Source: a virus. From it: a stretch of 28,919 nt of DNA. Position numbers and translations under genes: made by a program. Location of the stretch: IMG/VR virus record IMGVR_UViG_3300037264_009905, positions 1 through 28,919 of that record; one strand, written 5' to 3'. Below are positions 290 through 28,919 of the stretch, one piece after another. Position 1 is the stretch's first letter, and the number at the start of each line of letters is the position of its first letter. The notes below the pieces were generated by a model. It was not told the DNA's origin, ran no database searches, and worked only from the letters and a program-made list of their open reading frames with translations.

Positions 290-604
290 ATGTTATTGAA
301 TCGGGACTTGGGGGGCTATTTCTCCGCGATAGCGGCTCCGTTCAGCCATGTATCTGCCGAGAATCGCAAGACACAATCCAAATTTGAGTGCGTTGAATGC
401 GGGTATGCGGAGAATGCAGACCTCAATGCGGCCATCAATATTCTAAGGGCAGGACATGCCCGGCTCGCCTGCCAAGTGAACGGTGCTGTAATGCCGTCAG
501 CAACAGGAACTCACCGAAGCTATCTACCCCATTCCGGGGGGGAAGCGGTAGGAATCCCCTGCCTAAAGGCAGGGGAGGATGTCAACGCTGGTTACGTGGG
601 CTAA
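290..604 (+). pseudogene. tnpB: tnpB relic: C-terminal zinc ribbon and last RuvC motif only
   Basis: Residues 20-60 ([20 protein letters not shown], then [20 protein letters not shown]) are the classic end of TnpB, the RNA-guided nuclease of IS200/IS605 elements. They contain the second CxxC of the zinc ribbon (C34, C37) and the NAD motif whose Asp (D44) is the third RuvC catalytic residue. The first CxxC and about 300 upstream residues are absent. The start region (residues 1-19) is unrelated sequence, so an internal deletion joined the left end to the last part of the gene. After residue 60 the frame runs through the element's right end. It cannot be an active nuclease. The right-end RNA scaffold region (omegaRNA in intact elements) is still present downstream. 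Confidence 0.75.
556..575 (+). repeat. Right-end hairpin of the IS605-type element
   Basis: CCCCTGCC and GGCAGGGG form an 8-bp perfect stem around a TAAA loop. It is followed by AGGATGTCAA, typical of the right end of tnpB-bearing elements and of the 3' end of the omegaRNA scaffold. The stem also carries the G-rich stretch just upstream of the ATG at 579. Confidence 0.6.
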
Positions 605-1022: not shown

Positions 1023-1259
1023 ATGGACTTCGGCGCAGCACTACAAGAACTGAAACGCGGAAACAAGGTGGCCCGTAGCGGCTGGAACGGAAAAGGTTTG
1101 TGGGTCGAACTGCAAACACCTGACGAGCACAGCAAGATGACGCTGCCTTACCTGTACCTCAACTATCCGACCGACGCACAGAACACGCCGGGAGCGAGGG
1201 TGCCGTGGCTGGCCTCGCAGACCGACATTCTGGCCGAGGACTGGAGCATCGCAGCCTGA
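1023..1259 (+). CDS. tad2: DUF2829 / Tad2-like protein (Thoeris anti-defence family)
   Basis: The 78-aa product has the hallmarks of DUF2829: an N-terminal helix MDFGAALQELKRGNKVARSG leading into WNGKG, a middle segment with YLYLNYP, and the C-terminal signature VPWLASQTDILAEDWSI. Phage Tad2 proteins of this family bind and sequester the cyclic ADP-ribose-type signal made by the ThsB TIR protein, which stops activation of the Thoeris effector. The length is close to the 75-95 aa usual for the family. A strong ribosome-binding site, GGAAGGAAAA, sits 3 nt before the ATG. The gene points towards the lysis end of the phage late operon and follows the HNH gene, a typical moron position. The family call is from pattern recognition. 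The anti-Thoeris role is inferred from the family, since DUF2829 is broad and not every member has been tested. Confidence 0.75.
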   Translation: MDFGAALQELKRGNKVARSGWNGKGLWVELQTPDEHSKMTLPYLYLNYPTDAQNTPGARVPWLASQTDILAEDWSIAA

Positions 1260-3337: not shown

Positions 3338-4654
3338 TTACGCAGTCAGGTATCGTAACGCTACCTGACCAGACCCCCCGTTCCCACCGGATCCCCCATT
3401 GTGCGACCCTCCACCACCGCCGCCGCCTCGGTTTGCTGTACCGGTACCCCCGCTACCGCCTGATAATATAGAACCTGCCCCGCCACCATGTGAAGCTGTT
3501 CCGCCTGTGTAAGTGGCGTTACCGCCTCCGCCGCCTCCGCCGCCGCAATAATTTATAGATGCGCCAGATATGGAGCTACTGCTACCAGCTCCGCCGTTGC
3601 CACAAACGGTGGATGCTGCATTAGTACCTACAGAACTGGAACCACCCCCTCCGCCACCTGCCGCCACCGATACCGTACCGGCTACGCTGTTGCCGCCGTT
3701 AAACCCGGTGCTACCGACTCCGCCAGCACTTGCTCCACCTCCACCGGCTCCGCCACCAGAAGCCCCAGCACCTCCGCCTCCGCTACCAGACCCGCCTCCG
3801 CTACCACCTCCTGCGGCTACAATGGCGCTGAATGAGGTTGCAGTACCGGTTCCACCAGGTGCAGCAATGCTACCTCCGCCGCCTGCACCAATTGTTGCAG
3901 TCAGCGTGCCTGTGAGTGTAGGGAATGAGCCAACTCTAAACTCTCCTGCACCGCCACCACCACCCCACGCTCCACCTCCACCGCCGCCGCCACCTATCAT
4001 CAGATACTCAACATCTGAGAGCGTCCCTGTTATTACGAGATTTGCAGTAGAGTTGAACGTGTGAACGGTATACAACCCGTCTGTTGTCATAGTCCCACCT
4101 GTGGCACTGCCCTGTGGTATGACTAGCTCTGCGGCAAATGCAGGATTACCCAGCACCCATTTATCCAGCACTGAATCGAATTGCAACATTATCCAATGTC
4201 CAGCACCTGCGATATCGCCTGCAACTAACGGGTCATTTGAAAATTTGACGATTGTTTTGGCAGTTAGTCCGTCCGGGGAAAATGTGGGCGTTGTTATTGT
4301 ATTCGCTGCGCCAGCTCGTACCCATACAATCTGGCCGTTTGTTAATGTCACGTCGGGCGTAAAATCTGCGGTGATAGCATCGGACGTACCCGCTGCAACG
4401 GCGACAGCCAAGTCTCCCCCGCCCATAAACGATTTCAGTAACTGTGCGGTAATGCTTTTGTCAGTTGTGCCTTGACGTATCAACATCAGATCAGCGCTTG
4501 CAGCGCCGCTTGAGGCGACCAGATCAGACAGAGTGACTTTCGTCGCCCCTAGCTTTGATATGATCGTTGCTTCCTGTGTTGCGAGCGATAATATTGCAGC
4601 CTGCTCAGCGAGCAAATCTCTAACAAGTGCTTCTTCCGTGGGGGTCAGTGCCAT
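3338..4654 (-). CDS. Tail fibre with C-terminal glycine-rich domain
   Basis: The protein is 438 aa from the ATG at 4654, which has GGAG ten bases upstream; an ATG at 4669 lies inside the previous gene. Residues 1-80 look helical (ALTPTEEALVRDLLAEQAAI...), residues 85-175 form a small beta domain, and residues 190-220 (YTVHTFNSTANLVITGTLSD) introduce the glycine-rich part. Residues 221-435 are dominated by GGGGG runs with interspersed Ser, Ala, Asn and Thr, like the Gly_rich_2 type domain. Poly-glycine sandwiches of this sort form receptor-binding tips in some phage adhesins. It is the probable host-recognition protein. The long low-complexity tract is a likely place for slippage and recombination. 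Confidence 0.75.
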   Translation of the reverse strand: MALTPTEEALVRDLLAEQAAILSLATQEATIISKLGATKVTLSDLVASSGAASADLMLIRQGTTDKSITAQLLKSFMGGGDLAVAVAAGTSDAITADFTPDVTLTNGQIVWVRAGAANTITTPTFSPDGLTAKTIVKFSNDPLVAGDIAGAGHWIMLQFDSVLDKWVLGNPAFAAELVIPQGSATGGTMTTDGLYTVHTFNSTANLVITGTLSDVEYLMIGGGGGGGGAWGGGGGAGEFRVGSFPTLTGTLTATIGAGGGGSIAAPGGTGTATSFSAIVAAGGGSGGGSGSGGGGAGASGGGAGGGGASAGGVGSTGFNGGNSVAGTVSVAAGGGGGGSSSVGTNAASTVCGNGGAGSSSSISGASINYCGGGGGGGGNATYTGGTASHGGGAGSILSGGSGGTGTANRGGGGGGGSHNGGSGGNGGSGQVALRYLTA

Positions 4655-4655
4655 T

Positions 4656-5102
4656 TTATATATCTCCAAATTGTCTTGATGATGCCCTGATTATCGTATT
4701 GGCTGATCCACCTAAAACGGGTTGGTCACCCCCCACGGTTCCAGTGCCGAGCGTCAGGGTAGCACTATTTACAATCGTCAATGTATGTAATACGCCAGTG
4801 TCCCCTTTGTAACCGATCGCCACAAGATATTTTGCAGGATCGTTTTTATCAAACGATTCTAGCCTGACAAAACTGTCCGGGATCGTAAATAACCCAACTC
4901 CTGCCGAATCTGTCACGCGGTCACGGTTGATTAACCTGAATATTTTCTGAAACAGCCAGTTTAGCCATTGCGCTGGAAGCGGTTGGCCACGCGCGCCAGC
5001 AGTTTCAGGAATAAATCCATTCATCATTACAGCATCAGGTAGCTGCCCAACATTTTGCTGACCGTCAGGGTATCCTACATACGTTTCCGCGAATTCAATC
5101 AT
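4656..5102 (-). CDS. Baseplate/fibre-attachment protein
   Basis: The 148-aa protein has an N-terminus (FAETYVGYPDGQQNVGQLPD...AVMMNGFIPET, then QPLPAQWLNWLFQKIFRLIN) typical of short proteins between the DUF2612/gpI-like baseplate protein and the tail fibre in contractile-tailed phages. The second half is beta-rich (LHTLTIVNSATLTLGTGTV). It overlaps the DUF2612 gene by 4 nt and ends 2 bp before the fibre start. The role is probably to link the fibre to the baseplate wedge; this is inferred from position. Confidence 0.6.
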   Translation of the reverse strand: MIEFAETYVGYPDGQQNVGQLPDAVMMNGFIPETAGARGQPLPAQWLNWLFQKIFRLINRDRVTDSAGVGLFTIPDSFVRLESFDKNDPAKYLVAIGYKGDTGVLHTLTIVNSATLTLGTGTVGGDQPVLGGSANTIIRASSRQFGDI

Positions 5103-24976: not shown

Positions 24977-26593
24977 TTAGCGAAACTCCATTTTGTTTTG
25001 CAACTCATCATCCAGAGCTCTGGCTGCATTCCTGATACTCTGTTCAACAATTTCGCGCGTTGTTTTGTAATGATCCATTAATGTGTCGATCAAATCATCG
25101 GGTGAAATTAAATCCGGTACAGATTTAACTGGCACAGCCTGCACATGAACAGGCCTAACGTTTGACCGTGCAGATTCATCTGCCCTGACTTTTTCTGTTT
25201 CTTCTGACAGAGCATCCGCCGCTTTTGCAGCAACATTTATGCGTTCCTGTTCCGCCGCCTGCGCTTTTTTATCAGCATCGGCCTGAATTTTTTGGCGTAA
25301 AGTTTCGGCTTTTTCTTCCTCTGCCTTTTTGTGCATATCAATTCTTGATGTGACGATCAGCTTAAAATCGTCACATTCTTTAACTACAATCTGCTGTAAA
25401 TCGCTGAACAGAAAATTAAATGAATCCGCCTCATCTTTGTACCATGCCATTTTTTTGAGATAGTCGTTTGCATAAATGACCGCATTAACTTTTGCGTTTG
25501 CCAATGCCGCATTTAGTGCCTCTTGCATTGATTTGAGGGATTTAAGGTTTTTCGTTGCTGCCCCAAAATCAACTTTACCGATTGCCTGGGGGAAATTAAT
25601 TTCGAATTCGTTCAGGTATGTTTGATATTCATTTCGAACATTTAAAATTAGTGACGTTTTTCGCGCCTCTTTTTCCGTTCGTACCAGGGCCGCCAGTAAC
25701 AAACGTTTTTTACTCAATTGCGCTTTAATATTGTCAATAATGCGCAGCGCGTCATCAATGCTGGCCGTCTGTGCGAGTATCGCCAATTTCGTCGCGTCCA
25801 GTTTTTTCTCAGTTTCAGCGCAAAAATTCACGACTGCCACAGCATCAACGAAATGCTGATCTGTCTGCAAATCCATGTTGATATTCTGAATATACAGCTC
25901 TGCAACACGCTGGAATTCTGGTAGATTCGATTTTGTAATTCGTCCTTCAGCATGAGCAAACACTGTAGGCAGACCCATAATTAACTCAGCTTTTAGTTGC
26001 TGCTCTGGTTTTACATATTTGCAATTCTGTAGGTCAATTTCAAATTGATTCCAGCCTGCGACAATGCGCTCCCGCAGATCAAAATTTGGGGAGTACCAGG
26101 CGTGGAATTCTTCAATTAATACGTCAGAATCGTCCCATTTTGACGCCATAAACAAACATTTTTCAGCACCAGAAATCATTAATTGCTGTTCTATCTGTGG
26201 GTGGTATTGGTCAGGAATTAGCCCATCAACCAGCCTGGCTTTCAGTTCAATGTTGAGTTGTTTGTGTTCCCACGCAATTAGATCGTTAGCAGTAATTCCA
26301 TCGAACGATGCAGACAGTTTTCCTGCGCTGCCGGTAACCGGGTAGATAGATGCACCAGTAATTTCTTCCGCTAAAGTCCGAGCCAATTCTTCAAACCTAT
26401 GACCTTTATCAAAGATTTTCTGAGTGAATTCACTCGCGTCTGCTGTCATACCCAGAAATTTCTCCAGCAACAATTCATCCCTCGATTTATTCGGGTCAAT
26501 GCCCAGCATCGCGGCGCACTCACTTGCGTTAAAATGTGTTGCACGGTGAGCGTGCCATTCTTGACTGCCTTGCGTAATGTCGTGTGTTCTCAT
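24977..26593 (-). CDS. YqaJ / lambda-exonuclease-type recombinase
   Basis: The 538-aa protein has an N-terminal nuclease domain of the YqaJ family (residues 1-170): QGSQEWHAHRATHFNASECA, KGHRFEELAR (E68/E69), LSASFDG (D98), then WEHK (E109, K111) and HPQIEQQLMISGAEKCLFMA. It degrades one strand of duplex ends and delivers single strands to the RecT protein encoded directly upstream. Residues 170-538 are far longer than a minimal nuclease and contain a predicted coiled coil near residues 440-500 (EEEKAETLRQKIQADADKKA). The ribosome-binding site AGGAG precedes the ATG. Confidence 0.85.
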   Translation of the reverse strand: MRTHDITQGSQEWHAHRATHFNASECAAMLGIDPNKSRDELLLEKFLGMTADASEFTQKIFDKGHRFEELARTLAEEITGASIYPVTGSAGKLSASFDGITANDLIAWEHKQLNIELKARLVDGLIPDQYHPQIEQQLMISGAEKCLFMASKWDDSDVLIEEFHAWYSPNFDLRERIVAGWNQFEIDLQNCKYVKPEQQLKAELIMGLPTVFAHAEGRITKSNLPEFQRVAELYIQNINMDLQTDQHFVDAVAVVNFCAETEKKLDATKLAILAQTASIDDALRIIDNIKAQLSKKRLLLAALVRTEKEARKTSLILNVRNEYQTYLNEFEINFPQAIGKVDFGAATKNLKSLKSMQEALNAALANAKVNAVIYANDYLKKMAWYKDEADSFNFLFSDLQQIVVKECDDFKLIVTSRIDMHKKAEEEKAETLRQKIQADADKKAQAAEQERINVAAKAADALSEETEKVRADESARSNVRPVHVQAVPVKSVPDLISPDDLIDTLMDHYKTTREIVEQSIRNAARALDDELQNKMEFR

Positions 26594-26670: not shown

Positions 26671-27597
26671 TTATTGCCCCTCTTGTTGCCACGCCGAAAC
26701 CTGCATCTGCTGCTCATCACTCAGAGTGTATTTTTTGCTGATTGTGATTAGCGCTTCTGCTGCCGTTTTTTTCCCTGACCGAATAACAGATTCCCATTCT
26801 GCTGCCAATTTTGCGAACTGCTCAGCGGTGCATTCTGGGATCGTTTTTTTTGTCGTTTCTGGCGCCGATTGACCTTCCTGCTGTTCATCCGGATCAATCA
26901 CAATTCCGTTTTCAATCGTTACACTATGCCCTGATTCTGATGCATTGCTGACTGTAATCGCGTTTGATAATTCGACAGAACTGGGCATGTATTTCAGAAT
27001 ATGCAGAAGTGGAATTTTTCGGCAATACATTTCCCAATGCGCAAAACTGTAATGCCGACCCCCTTGTTTGTTATTTTTGTCCCTGTATTTTGTGAGTTTT
27101 TCAACTGTCCACAATTCAATGTGTGGAATGATTGAATCTTTTACCCAGCCTACCGCATATGCATGGGTGATATCTGCCTGGTCATGCAAATCCGTTTCGT
27201 TATGAATTACCAGATCACGCCGTGAGCCATCTGTGAATGTGTATTGCTGGTCCTTGAAAATCACCCCTGTAAAAACGGTTGCGCGACCACTGCGTGAGAC
27301 CAAATCCAACAGCCCTTTCCAACCGGGGACGAACGTGCAAGTATCTCTGTATGGCATTAAATAACCTGCACCATTAACGCCCGGCTCCAGCCCTAGCTGT
27401 CCTGCAATCATGGTGCTGGCGGCAATACTTTTGTGAGTGCACGCCTGCAACTGAGGGTTTATGCTGAATGCTGTCAGAACCAGCCTGGTCATGCGATCTG
27501 CTGTCAGATGTTTTGGTAATACCAGTGCCAGCTGAGGTTTTAATTTCTCCATGAAATTGCTGAGTGCAACAACAGGGTTTTGTGGGGTTGTGTTCAT
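26671..27597 (-). CDS. recT: RecT single-strand annealing protein
   Basis: The 308-aa protein has the RecT core: RMTRLVLTAFSINPQLQACT, then KSIAASTMIAGQLGLEPGVN, GAGYLMPYRDTCTFVPGWKG and LLDLVSRSGRATVFTGVIF. Residues 165-215 contain KLTKYRDKNNKQGGRHYSFA and HWEMYCRKIPLLHILKYMP. It anneals complementary strands made by the neighbouring exonuclease and acts in phage recombination and replication. A ribosome-binding site AAAGGAG precedes the start. The C-terminal 80 residues are acidic and less conserved. Confidence 0.9.
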   Translation of the reverse strand: MNTTPQNPVVALSNFMEKLKPQLALVLPKHLTADRMTRLVLTAFSINPQLQACTHKSIAASTMIAGQLGLEPGVNGAGYLMPYRDTCTFVPGWKGLLDLVSRSGRATVFTGVIFKDQQYTFTDGSRRDLVIHNETDLHDQADITHAYAVGWVKDSIIPHIELWTVEKLTKYRDKNNKQGGRHYSFAHWEMYCRKIPLLHILKYMPSSVELSNAITVSNASESGHSVTIENGIVIDPDEQQEGQSAPETTKKTIPECTAEQFAKLAAEWESVIRSGKKTAAEALITISKKYTLSDEQQMQVSAWQQEGQ

Positions 27598-27608: not shown

Positions 27609-27818
27609 TTAATTAATTGTCATTGACGATTGACGCCACGCCGATCTGATCGTGTACCCGTTTCTGATGAAAAAAATAAAATGCGAACACATGCGTATTG
27701 CATTTCGTGATGCGCATGAAATTCTGCGTAATACGCGGCGCCTTGATCTGCCCTGTATGCATGTGCGGCCTGCTTGTATCTTGCGTTTTTCGTTTATTTT
27801 TTGTGCGTGATCGTTCAT
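27609..27818 (-). pseudogene. Small gene with probable frame breaks
   Basis: ATG 27818 has GGAG six bases upstream in the second copy of the 25-bp leader. The first 12 codons (MNDHAQKINEKR) read well. Then the zero frame turns into Arg/Ser/Cys-rich text, while the next frame gives NARYKQAAHAYRADQGAAYY and AEFHAHHEMQYACVR, and the third frame ends HQKRVHDQIGVASIVNDN. The changes fall near the homopolymers AAAAA and TTTTTTT. The likeliest reading is one ~70-residue helical protein interrupted by two indels, either real decay or sequencing error. Confidence 0.4.
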
Positions 27819-27875: not shown

Positions 27876-28655
27876 TCACTCTCTAAGCAGACTGCCGCAA
27901 TATTTCAGTGCAGTACCAGGCCGCCGTTTGACGCACCAGTCCAGCAGGGCAGGGGTTAGCAGGCTGCCGCAATATACCAGTGCAGTACCAGGCTGCCGTT
28001 TGACGCACCAGTCCAGCAGGGCAGGGGTTAGCAGATTGGTGCAATATTTCAGTGCAGTACCAGGCCGCCGTTTGGCGCACCAGTCCAGCCGCTCAGGGGT
28101 TAGCAAACTGCCGCAATATACCAGTGCAGTACCAGGCCGCCGTTTGGCACACCAGTCCAGCAGGGCAGGGGTTAGCAGATTGGTGCAATATTTCAGTGCA
28201 GTACCAGGATGCCGTTTGGCACACCAGTCCAGCAGGGCAGGGGTTAGCTGGCTGCCGCAATATCCCAGTGCAATACCAGGCTGCTGTTCTGCACACCAGT
28301 CCAGCAGGGCAGGGGTTAGCTGGCTGCCGCAATATACCAGTGCCGCATCAGGATGCCGTTTGACGCACCAGTCCAGCCGCTCAGGGGTTAGCAAACTGGC
28401 GCAATATGCCAGTGCGGTACTAGGCTGCTGTTCTGCGCACCAGTCCAGCCGGGCAGGATACCGCGTATCCGCCTGCGCCAGACTGAGGTACAGGTCTGCG
28501 AATCTGCTCACGCCCCATAGAAAATAGCCGGGGCGCAGGCTTAGTGGGCCAGGGTTGGCCTTCCATGCATTTACGCCGCCAGTGCAGGCGCATAATTTAC
28601 GCAGTACGTCCATGGTTATGTCGGTCAGTAATGTTATTTGAACTGGGGTTTTCAT
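27876..28655 (-). CDS. 24-residue repeat protein (DWC/YC repeats), 259 aa
   Basis: The ATG at 28655 has AGGAG ten bases upstream; an in-frame ATG at 28706 lies inside the promoter and is rejected. A 64-residue head (MKTPVQITLLTDITMDVLRK, ...GYFLWGVSRFADLYLSLAQ) is followed by eight tandem 24-residue units and a three-residue tail (LRE). The consensus unit is LTPALLDWCAKRRPGTALKY plus C-(TN/GS)-L. Invariant L, D, W, C, P, A, L, Y and C suggest a helix-pair solenoid, resembling DUF4116-type repeats (...ALxYAS..L..). Each unit differs only at a few positions that alternate between fixed choices. No enzyme motif or membrane segment is present; a protein-binding or decoy role is a guess. It is the first gene after a strong promoter, upstream of recT. 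Confidence 0.75.
   Translation of the reverse strand: MKTPVQITLLTDITMDVLRKLCACTGGVNAWKANPGPLSLRPGYFLWGVSRFADLYLSLAQADTRYPARLDWCAEQQPSTALAYCASLLTPERLDWCVKRHPDAALVYCGSQLTPALLDWCAEQQPGIALGYCGSQLTPALLDWCAKRHPGTALKYCTNLLTPALLDWCAKRRPGTALVYCGSLLTPERLDWCAKRRPGTALKYCTNLLTPALLDWCVKRQPGTALVYCGSLLTPALLDWCVKRRPGTALKYCGSLLRE
27888..28463 (-). repeat. Eight 72-bp tandem coding repeats
   Basis: Eight units of 72 bp encode the 24-residue repeats. Units near the 3' end are nearly identical in DNA. Variation comes as linked blocks, such as the codons for K...CTN versus V...CGS. The oldest-looking units are at the 5' end (RYPARLDWCAEQQPSTALAY). A 68-bp stretch, 28022-28089, is identical to 28796-28863 in the neighbouring gene. 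Confidence 0.9.
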
Positions 28656-28695
28656 TTCAGTATCTCCTGTTATGTGCTGTGTTTCGATGGTTCCC

Positions 28696-28723
28696 ATTAT
28701 ACACACAATTCAAAACATGTCAA
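28696..28723 (-). promoter_or_regulatory. Strong sigma70-type promoter for the repeat gene
   Basis: On the coding strand TTGACA (28723-28718), a 16-bp spacer and TATAAT (28701-28696) match both consensus boxes perfectly. Transcription should start near 28689, leaving about 34 nt of leader with AGGAG before the ATG at 28655. It is the strongest promoter in the window and may drive the operon with recT and the exonuclease. Confidence 0.8.
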
Positions 28724-28733
28724 CACAATTCAA
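28703..28733 (-). promoter_or_regulatory. Two 11-bp direct repeats over the promoter, operator-like
   Basis: TTGAATTGTGT occurs at 28733-28723 and again at 28713-28703 on the coding strand, exactly 20 bp apart (two helical turns). One lies upstream of the -35 box and touches it; the other fills the spacer up to the -10 box. This is the layout expected for cooperative binding of a repressor on one DNA face. Confidence 0.6.
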
Positions 28734-28760
28734 TGCAAAGATTCAAAATAAATAATCGTA

Positions 28761-28919
28761 TCACTGAGTTTTTTCGGCACACCAGTCCAGCCGCTCAGGG
28801 GTTAGCAGATTGGTGCAATATTTCAGTGCAGTACCAGGCCGCCGTTTGGCGCACCAGTCCAGCAGGGCAGGGGTTAGCAGATTGGTGCAATATTTCAGTG
28901 CAGTACCAGGCCGCCGTTT
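28761..28919 (-). CDS. Second 24-residue repeat gene, 5' part outside the window
   Basis: The last 52 residues of a second repeat protein enter from the right edge. They comprise a partial unit, one full unit LTPALLDWCAKRRPGTALKY + CTNL, and a last unit cut short as LTPERLDWCAEKTQ before TGA at 28763-28761. Its DNA is almost identical to parts of the neighbouring gene. It ends 28 bp before the operator-like repeats of that gene, so the two form a tandem pair. The shortened last unit may reflect a recombination end point. Confidence 0.75.
   Translation of the reverse strand, partial: KRRPGTALKYCTNLLTPALLDWCAKRRPGTALKYCTNLLTPERLDWCAEKTQ

Follow-up and report, generated by a model that had tools for sequence, protein, structure and literature searches.

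The nearest working analogy to the locus described here is provided by the HNWD WD-repeat genes of Podospora anserina, whose units are under concerted evolution and are rearranged by recombination. In these arrays rearrangement alters recognition, and the change of specificity has been proven by experiment (PMC2873952); the HNWD repeats, however, form the eukaryotic WD-repeat domain of STAND proteins and have no homology to the phage protein. In viruses, the BACON repeats of crAss-like phages (PMC6949934) are likewise tandem and probably act as binding modules, but they are tail-associated and are a different domain. A third point of comparison is DUF4116, a repeat protein of giant viruses, bacteria and some phages that has itself been modelled as an alpha-solenoid (PMC8078820): among phages, DUF4116 genes are annotated or detectable in Fusobacterium phage phiFN37, Pseudoalteromonas phage Slicky01 and Salicola phage SCTP-2, with three genes close together in Slicky01 and copies at several places in SCTP-2. 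One of the neighbouring Slicky01 genes (L207 2364-3444) consists of 22-residue TPEICLAAV repeats, and the record describes them as hypothetical.

We analysed a phage contig of 28,919 nucleotides (IMG/VR record IMGVR_UViG_3300037264_009905; hereafter the window), which ends in two adjacent genes made of 72-bp repeats. To us the odds are about even that these tandem paralogues encode early accessory alpha-solenoid binders whose units are reshuffled by recombination. A previous reading of the sequence without database searches (the sequence-only reading) had presented such a solenoid as new for this kind of phage; this has to be softened, since other phages carry DUF4116 solenoids, one of them with three neighbouring genes, and the repeat genes are better seen as a variation on a fold already known than as a novel system.

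The repeat genes and their setting

The region contains the following features, all on the minus strand except the 70-bp match, to which no strand applies:

28850..28919: 70-bp exact match to 28004-28073
28761..28919, minus: 3' part of the second repeat gene, about two units visible, ending ...LLTPERLDWCAEKTQ-stop (28761-28763) and cut by the contig end
28703..28733, minus: two exact 11-nt direct repeats TTGAATTGTGT, 20 bp apart, the sole two exact copies in the window
28696..28723, minus: candidate sigma-70 consensus promoter TTGACA-16-TATAAT, matching at 12/12 positions
27876..28655, minus: complete repeat gene, 259 aa by translation, ATG at 28655, stop at 27876-27878
28467..28655, minus: N-terminal 63-residue segment of the complete gene, unlike the relatives' conserved cap in alignments, with pLDDT <50 for residues 1-51
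27891..28466, minus: array of eight 72-bp units, from unit 1 (28466-28395) to unit 8 (27962-27891)
27609..27818, minus: small ORF (69 aa) lying between repeat gene and recT and matching no Pfam family
26671..27597, minus: recT, gene of the single-strand annealing protein, codirectional and downstream (PF03837, E 7e-23)
24977..26593, minus: YqaJ-type exonuclease gene (PF09588, E 2.2e-11)

The 72-bp repeats reported in both genes are real, the same period being recovered independently by TRF in the complete gene (7.9 copies, 85% matches, score 776, 27886-28457) and in the second one (2.0 copies, 94%, score 260, 28776-28919). In the 259-aa product, residues 1-63 are followed by eight units (residues 64-255) and a short tail, LLRE; every unit from residue 64 on is exactly 24 aa long and centred on LDWC, and unit 1 is the most divergent. 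Across seven units the amino acid is invariant at 12 of the 24 positions and changes are confined to the other twelve (1, 5-6, 11-14, 16-17, 20 and 23-24). All the residue alternatives that the sequence-only reading had listed (at positions 3-5, 10 and 11-13 and at the unit end) are found in the units, and the unit ends show further combinations: K-Y-CGS in unit 8, G-Y-CGS in unit 3 and A-Y-CAS in unit 1.

An SD-like AGGAG (ACAGGAGATACTGAAATG) lies upstream of the ATG at 28655, and a GTG at 28706 (276 aa) is the less likely start. The candidate promoter stands ~40 nt upstream of this ATG, and the 11-nt direct repeats, a candidate operator, flank and overlap its -35 hexamer. Downstream, the repeat gene, the 69-aa ORF, recT and the YqaJ exonuclease gene follow one another in a single direction, and the two domain matches confirm the recT-exonuclease pair that had been proposed there. 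With this promoter in front and recT and the exonuclease gene behind, the repeat gene is probably the first of an early operon; it would probably lead a strong early transcript, in an arrangement that may resemble a repressible early operon.

Unique DNA with the promoter lies between the first gene and the second, and the two are tandem paralogues. The 68-bp exact match noted between them (28022-28089 and 28796-28863) was verified, and the longer match of 70 bp occupies exactly the final 70 bases of the contig, which indicates that the second gene is truncated there and that the assembler probably stopped at the repeat.

Near the other end of the window, a C-terminal fragment of a TnpB/Cas12f-like protein (290-604, plus strand; PF07282, 31 bits) is directly followed by an HNH endonuclease gene (579-917), and a protein of 443 aa whose C-terminal domain is long and rich in glycine (3338-4669, minus strand; PF21722) is probably a tail fibre.

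Relatives and predicted fold

Searches of viral contigs found the repeat family in five further phage contigs, with arrays at contig ends in three. The members are G001/L003 (3300028388_001406), G002/L004 (3300028388_002907), G003/L006 (3300049048_000059) and L021/L022, the last a short form of 95 aa; all have the 24-residue unit (HMM E 5.7e-22 or better), with the family consensus LLTPERLDWCAEQ.P..ALKYAsd. Four repeat genes occupy 3.7 kb of G002 (79049-82691), and G001 has two, the second truncated. The final 130 bp of G001 equal gene b of G002 with one mismatch and its start resembles gene a, so that this end either combines two paralogues in a mosaic or is a chimera of the assembly; G001 and G002 come from a single sample, and one genome that broke at the array may have given rise to both. 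Within one repeat gene of G001, the N-terminal cap region carries an exact 84-bp tandem duplication (L003 4832-4999). The repeat array touches the contig end in the window, G001, G002 and G003 (4/4), which suggests that these genes are points where virome assemblies are prone to break.

The relatives have from ~2 to at least 5 units, against eight in the window protein. A conserved N-terminal cap (W....FT..HA.FI...GAC..VY.FVG) is common to G001, G002 and L021; the window protein has none, and G003 is cut off at that point. Unit position 22 is A, S, T or V in the relatives but a second Cys in the window units; the Cys at position 10, on the hydrophobic face, is invariant in all family units examined. 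The positions that vary in the window are those that vary across the family (Spearman 0.68, p = 3e-4).

Beyond these contigs, a Dolichospermum phage gave a weak match (27.6% identity) and is a possible distant relative, and tblastn on plasmids returned matches to MucBP/Ig-like proteins. The motif TPALLDWC gave nothing in a DNA pattern scan of viral contigs, and short motif patterns did not find the family in bacterial genomes, which is weak evidence of absence. A scan match in L017 lay in a gene resembling, by eye, dihydrodipicolinate reductase and was put down to a chance motif match. The TIP49_C AAA-lid (PF17856) scored 28.8 bits (cut-off 24.5) on one 24-residue unit of a 66-residue model, in a protein with no AAA domain, and was judged a chance repeat match; PHROG matches covered stretches of ~14-40 residues to unnamed families and were attributed to composition or repeat chance; and the PADLOC anti-phage defence profiles gave no significant match (best E 0.011 over 14 residues). 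A sequence search of solved structures found nothing. The phage repeats gathered here form a family without a name, to which no PHROG, PADLOC or Pfam entry is a convincing match.

From an input alignment of 8 sequences, AlphaFold2 predicts the window protein to be an alpha-alpha solenoid with pLDDT ~88-98 over residues 71-250 and two helices per unit (positions 4-13 and ~15-24); the relative L004:2792-3361 gave a matching fold with a mean pLDDT of 94.1. The proposed solenoid is thus borne out as a predicted fold; overconfidence of AlphaFold2 on near-perfect repeats has been reported for beta-solenoids (PMC11795689). In a viral fold library the best matches of both models were DUF4116 proteins, at probability 1.00 and an E value of 3e-3 (above 1e-3), among them a 184-aa DUF4116 protein of Siphoviridae sp. 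ctYh54 (TM 0.52/0.53).

The resemblance to DUF4116 that had been seen by eye therefore holds in fold but not as formal membership by sequence. Against DUF4116 (PF13475; gathering cut-off 24.9 bits), the window protein had no match at E values up to 10, the best relative reached 13.0 bits and no match was found in the window, G001-G003, L021 or Dolichospermum phage records. Aligned by hhalign to DUF4116 repeats, the family gave a probability no higher than about 5% (5.4% with a pairwise E value of 0.007), against 97.7% for a positive control of two DUF4116 subtypes; column-permuted controls scored as well in 1/200 and 0/150 cases (local, 25-residue units) and in 2-9/150 at other settings. Two-helix units of similar length and an A-L-x-Y in the second helix are common to both, but DUF4116 has a period of 25 in one array and 22 in another where the window family has 24, and the window family is set apart by its invariant Cys at position 10 and its LDWC motif. 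The models predict an alpha-solenoid of two-helix units, as in DUF4116, and on these grounds the repeat protein appears DUF4116-like in fold, not a member. The variable positions lean away from the hydrophobic face, a weak trend in which exposure was judged by a helical-wheel proxy (Spearman 0.43, p = 0.06).

Mosaic units

The mosaic structure of the units was measured on seven units plus one complete unit of the second gene, with 15 informative sites giving 105 pairs. By the four-gamete test, 66 of the 105 site pairs were incompatible, showing all four combinations, and parsimony over all 10,395 trees required at least 33 changes for a minimum of 23, or 10 homoplasies. In 120 simulated clonal histories with an equal number of changes, homoplasies averaged 0.7-1.2 and never exceeded 4, so that 10 were reached in 0 of 120. 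The mosaicism described from the sequence thus exceeds clonal expectation and is statistically stronger than first stated: the units have exchanged pieces. Silent differences (TGC/TGT, CTG/TTG, AGC/AGT) are reassorted between units too, so that selection for protein convergence does not explain the mosaic; strain-to-strain assembly chimerism keeps a residual chance of being its source.

Identity is 76% among the window units and 49-59% between these and the units of relatives, indicating that amplification of the array postdates the split of the lineages. Between window units pN/pS is 1.06-1.12, which is compatible with diversification or with relaxed constraint and decides neither; the relatives' arrays have values of 0.28-0.47, so that selection for diversity does not extend to the family at large. 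The window array is known from one haplotype of this phage, and viral contig searches found no close relatives with a different array order.

Proposed role and competing explanations

In the mechanism that we propose, the repeat genes would code for short proteins folded as alpha-alpha solenoids, belonging to a phage family built on a 24-residue repeat and acting inside the cell, the complete copy being expressed early from the candidate promoter. The conserved residues would form the helical core, and the variable positions, mostly on or near the exposed side, may make contact with a protein of the host or of a defence system. Within and between the paralogues, homologous recombination of the 72-bp units would delete, duplicate and recombine units and thereby alter the length and surface of the solenoid. 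A counter-host role is conceivable but on balance doubtful. The same phage has a gene for a Tad2-like (Thoeris anti-defence 2-like) protein of 78 aa (1023-1259, plus strand; full-length PF11195 match, 84.3 bits), which is evidence only that probable counter-defence cargo is present in its genome.

The functional link to recT and the exonuclease gene suggested by the sequence-only reading was not upheld. The repeat gene was found around 0 of 80 RecT relatives and 0 of 80 terminase relatives in the flanks covered, some of them short, and the genes immediately preceding recT vary between the nearest relatives; in other phages the family lies close not to recT but to PhoH, an N6-methylase-like gene, an AAA ATPase or a helicase. 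This absence and the variable genes before recT argue that the repeat gene is most likely an accessory gene carried in a variable slot and not part of the recombinase. A partner of the RecT-exonuclease system, for instance one that mediates loading of the recombinase or regulates it, would suit a gene of the same direction and probably the same operon, but many of the 80 RecT relatives have the same recT-exonuclease order without it, and we think such a partnership very unlikely. The phage's own RecT might have some role in the reshuffling, which we would not bet on.

The competitor that deserves most weight is neutral repeat instability, in which the solenoid tolerates surface change and slippage or recombination shuffles its units without selection for diversity. 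It falls well short of even chances but is a serious contender: the pN/pS between window units is the neutral value, and the same positions vary in relatives at low pN/pS, as relaxed surface constraint predicts, although the twelve invariant positions reveal that constraint is present. Much less probable is an assembly artefact, with the second gene or the unit order produced by repeat collapse or chimeric joining. The 70-bp repeat stands exactly at the end of the contig, the arrays of G001, G002 and G003 are similarly placed, and the G001 end has 73 exact bases in common with G002, but the C-terminus and stop of the second gene are its own and lie beside unique promoter DNA, and tandem paralogues are also present in independent contigs. 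The order and number of units in the window array are nevertheless unsafe. An RNA-binding solenoid of the Pumilio (PUF) type, each unit recognising a base, is less likely than an artefact: Pumilio structures are the commonest near the top of a fold search of solved structures and each unit has variable residues at fixed positions, yet the best fold E value is 0.037 with TM at most 0.50, there is no match at E 1e-3 and no PUF family match in the profile search. PUF repeats are of ~36 residues with three helices, against units of 24 residues here. Least likely of all is a virion or receptor-binding protein that diversifies host range, a role proposed for the tail-associated BACON repeats; phage tandem repeats can occur in tail proteins (PMC6949934), but the gene sits in the recombination region behind a consensus promoter, far from the tail genes, which lie at positions ~3-14 kb.

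We thus retain early accessory solenoid binders with recombining units as the preferred reading. Its boldest form, that the tandem early genes make a variable recognition protein, continuously reshuffled, possibly by the phage's own RecT, and presenting a new surface in each lineage against host or rival targets, is a long shot.

As the arrays lie at contig ends in viral metagenomes, their number and diversity are likely undercounted. If the array truly changes within phage populations, new binding specificities could arise simply by recombination, much as in eukaryotic repeat-based recognition genes.
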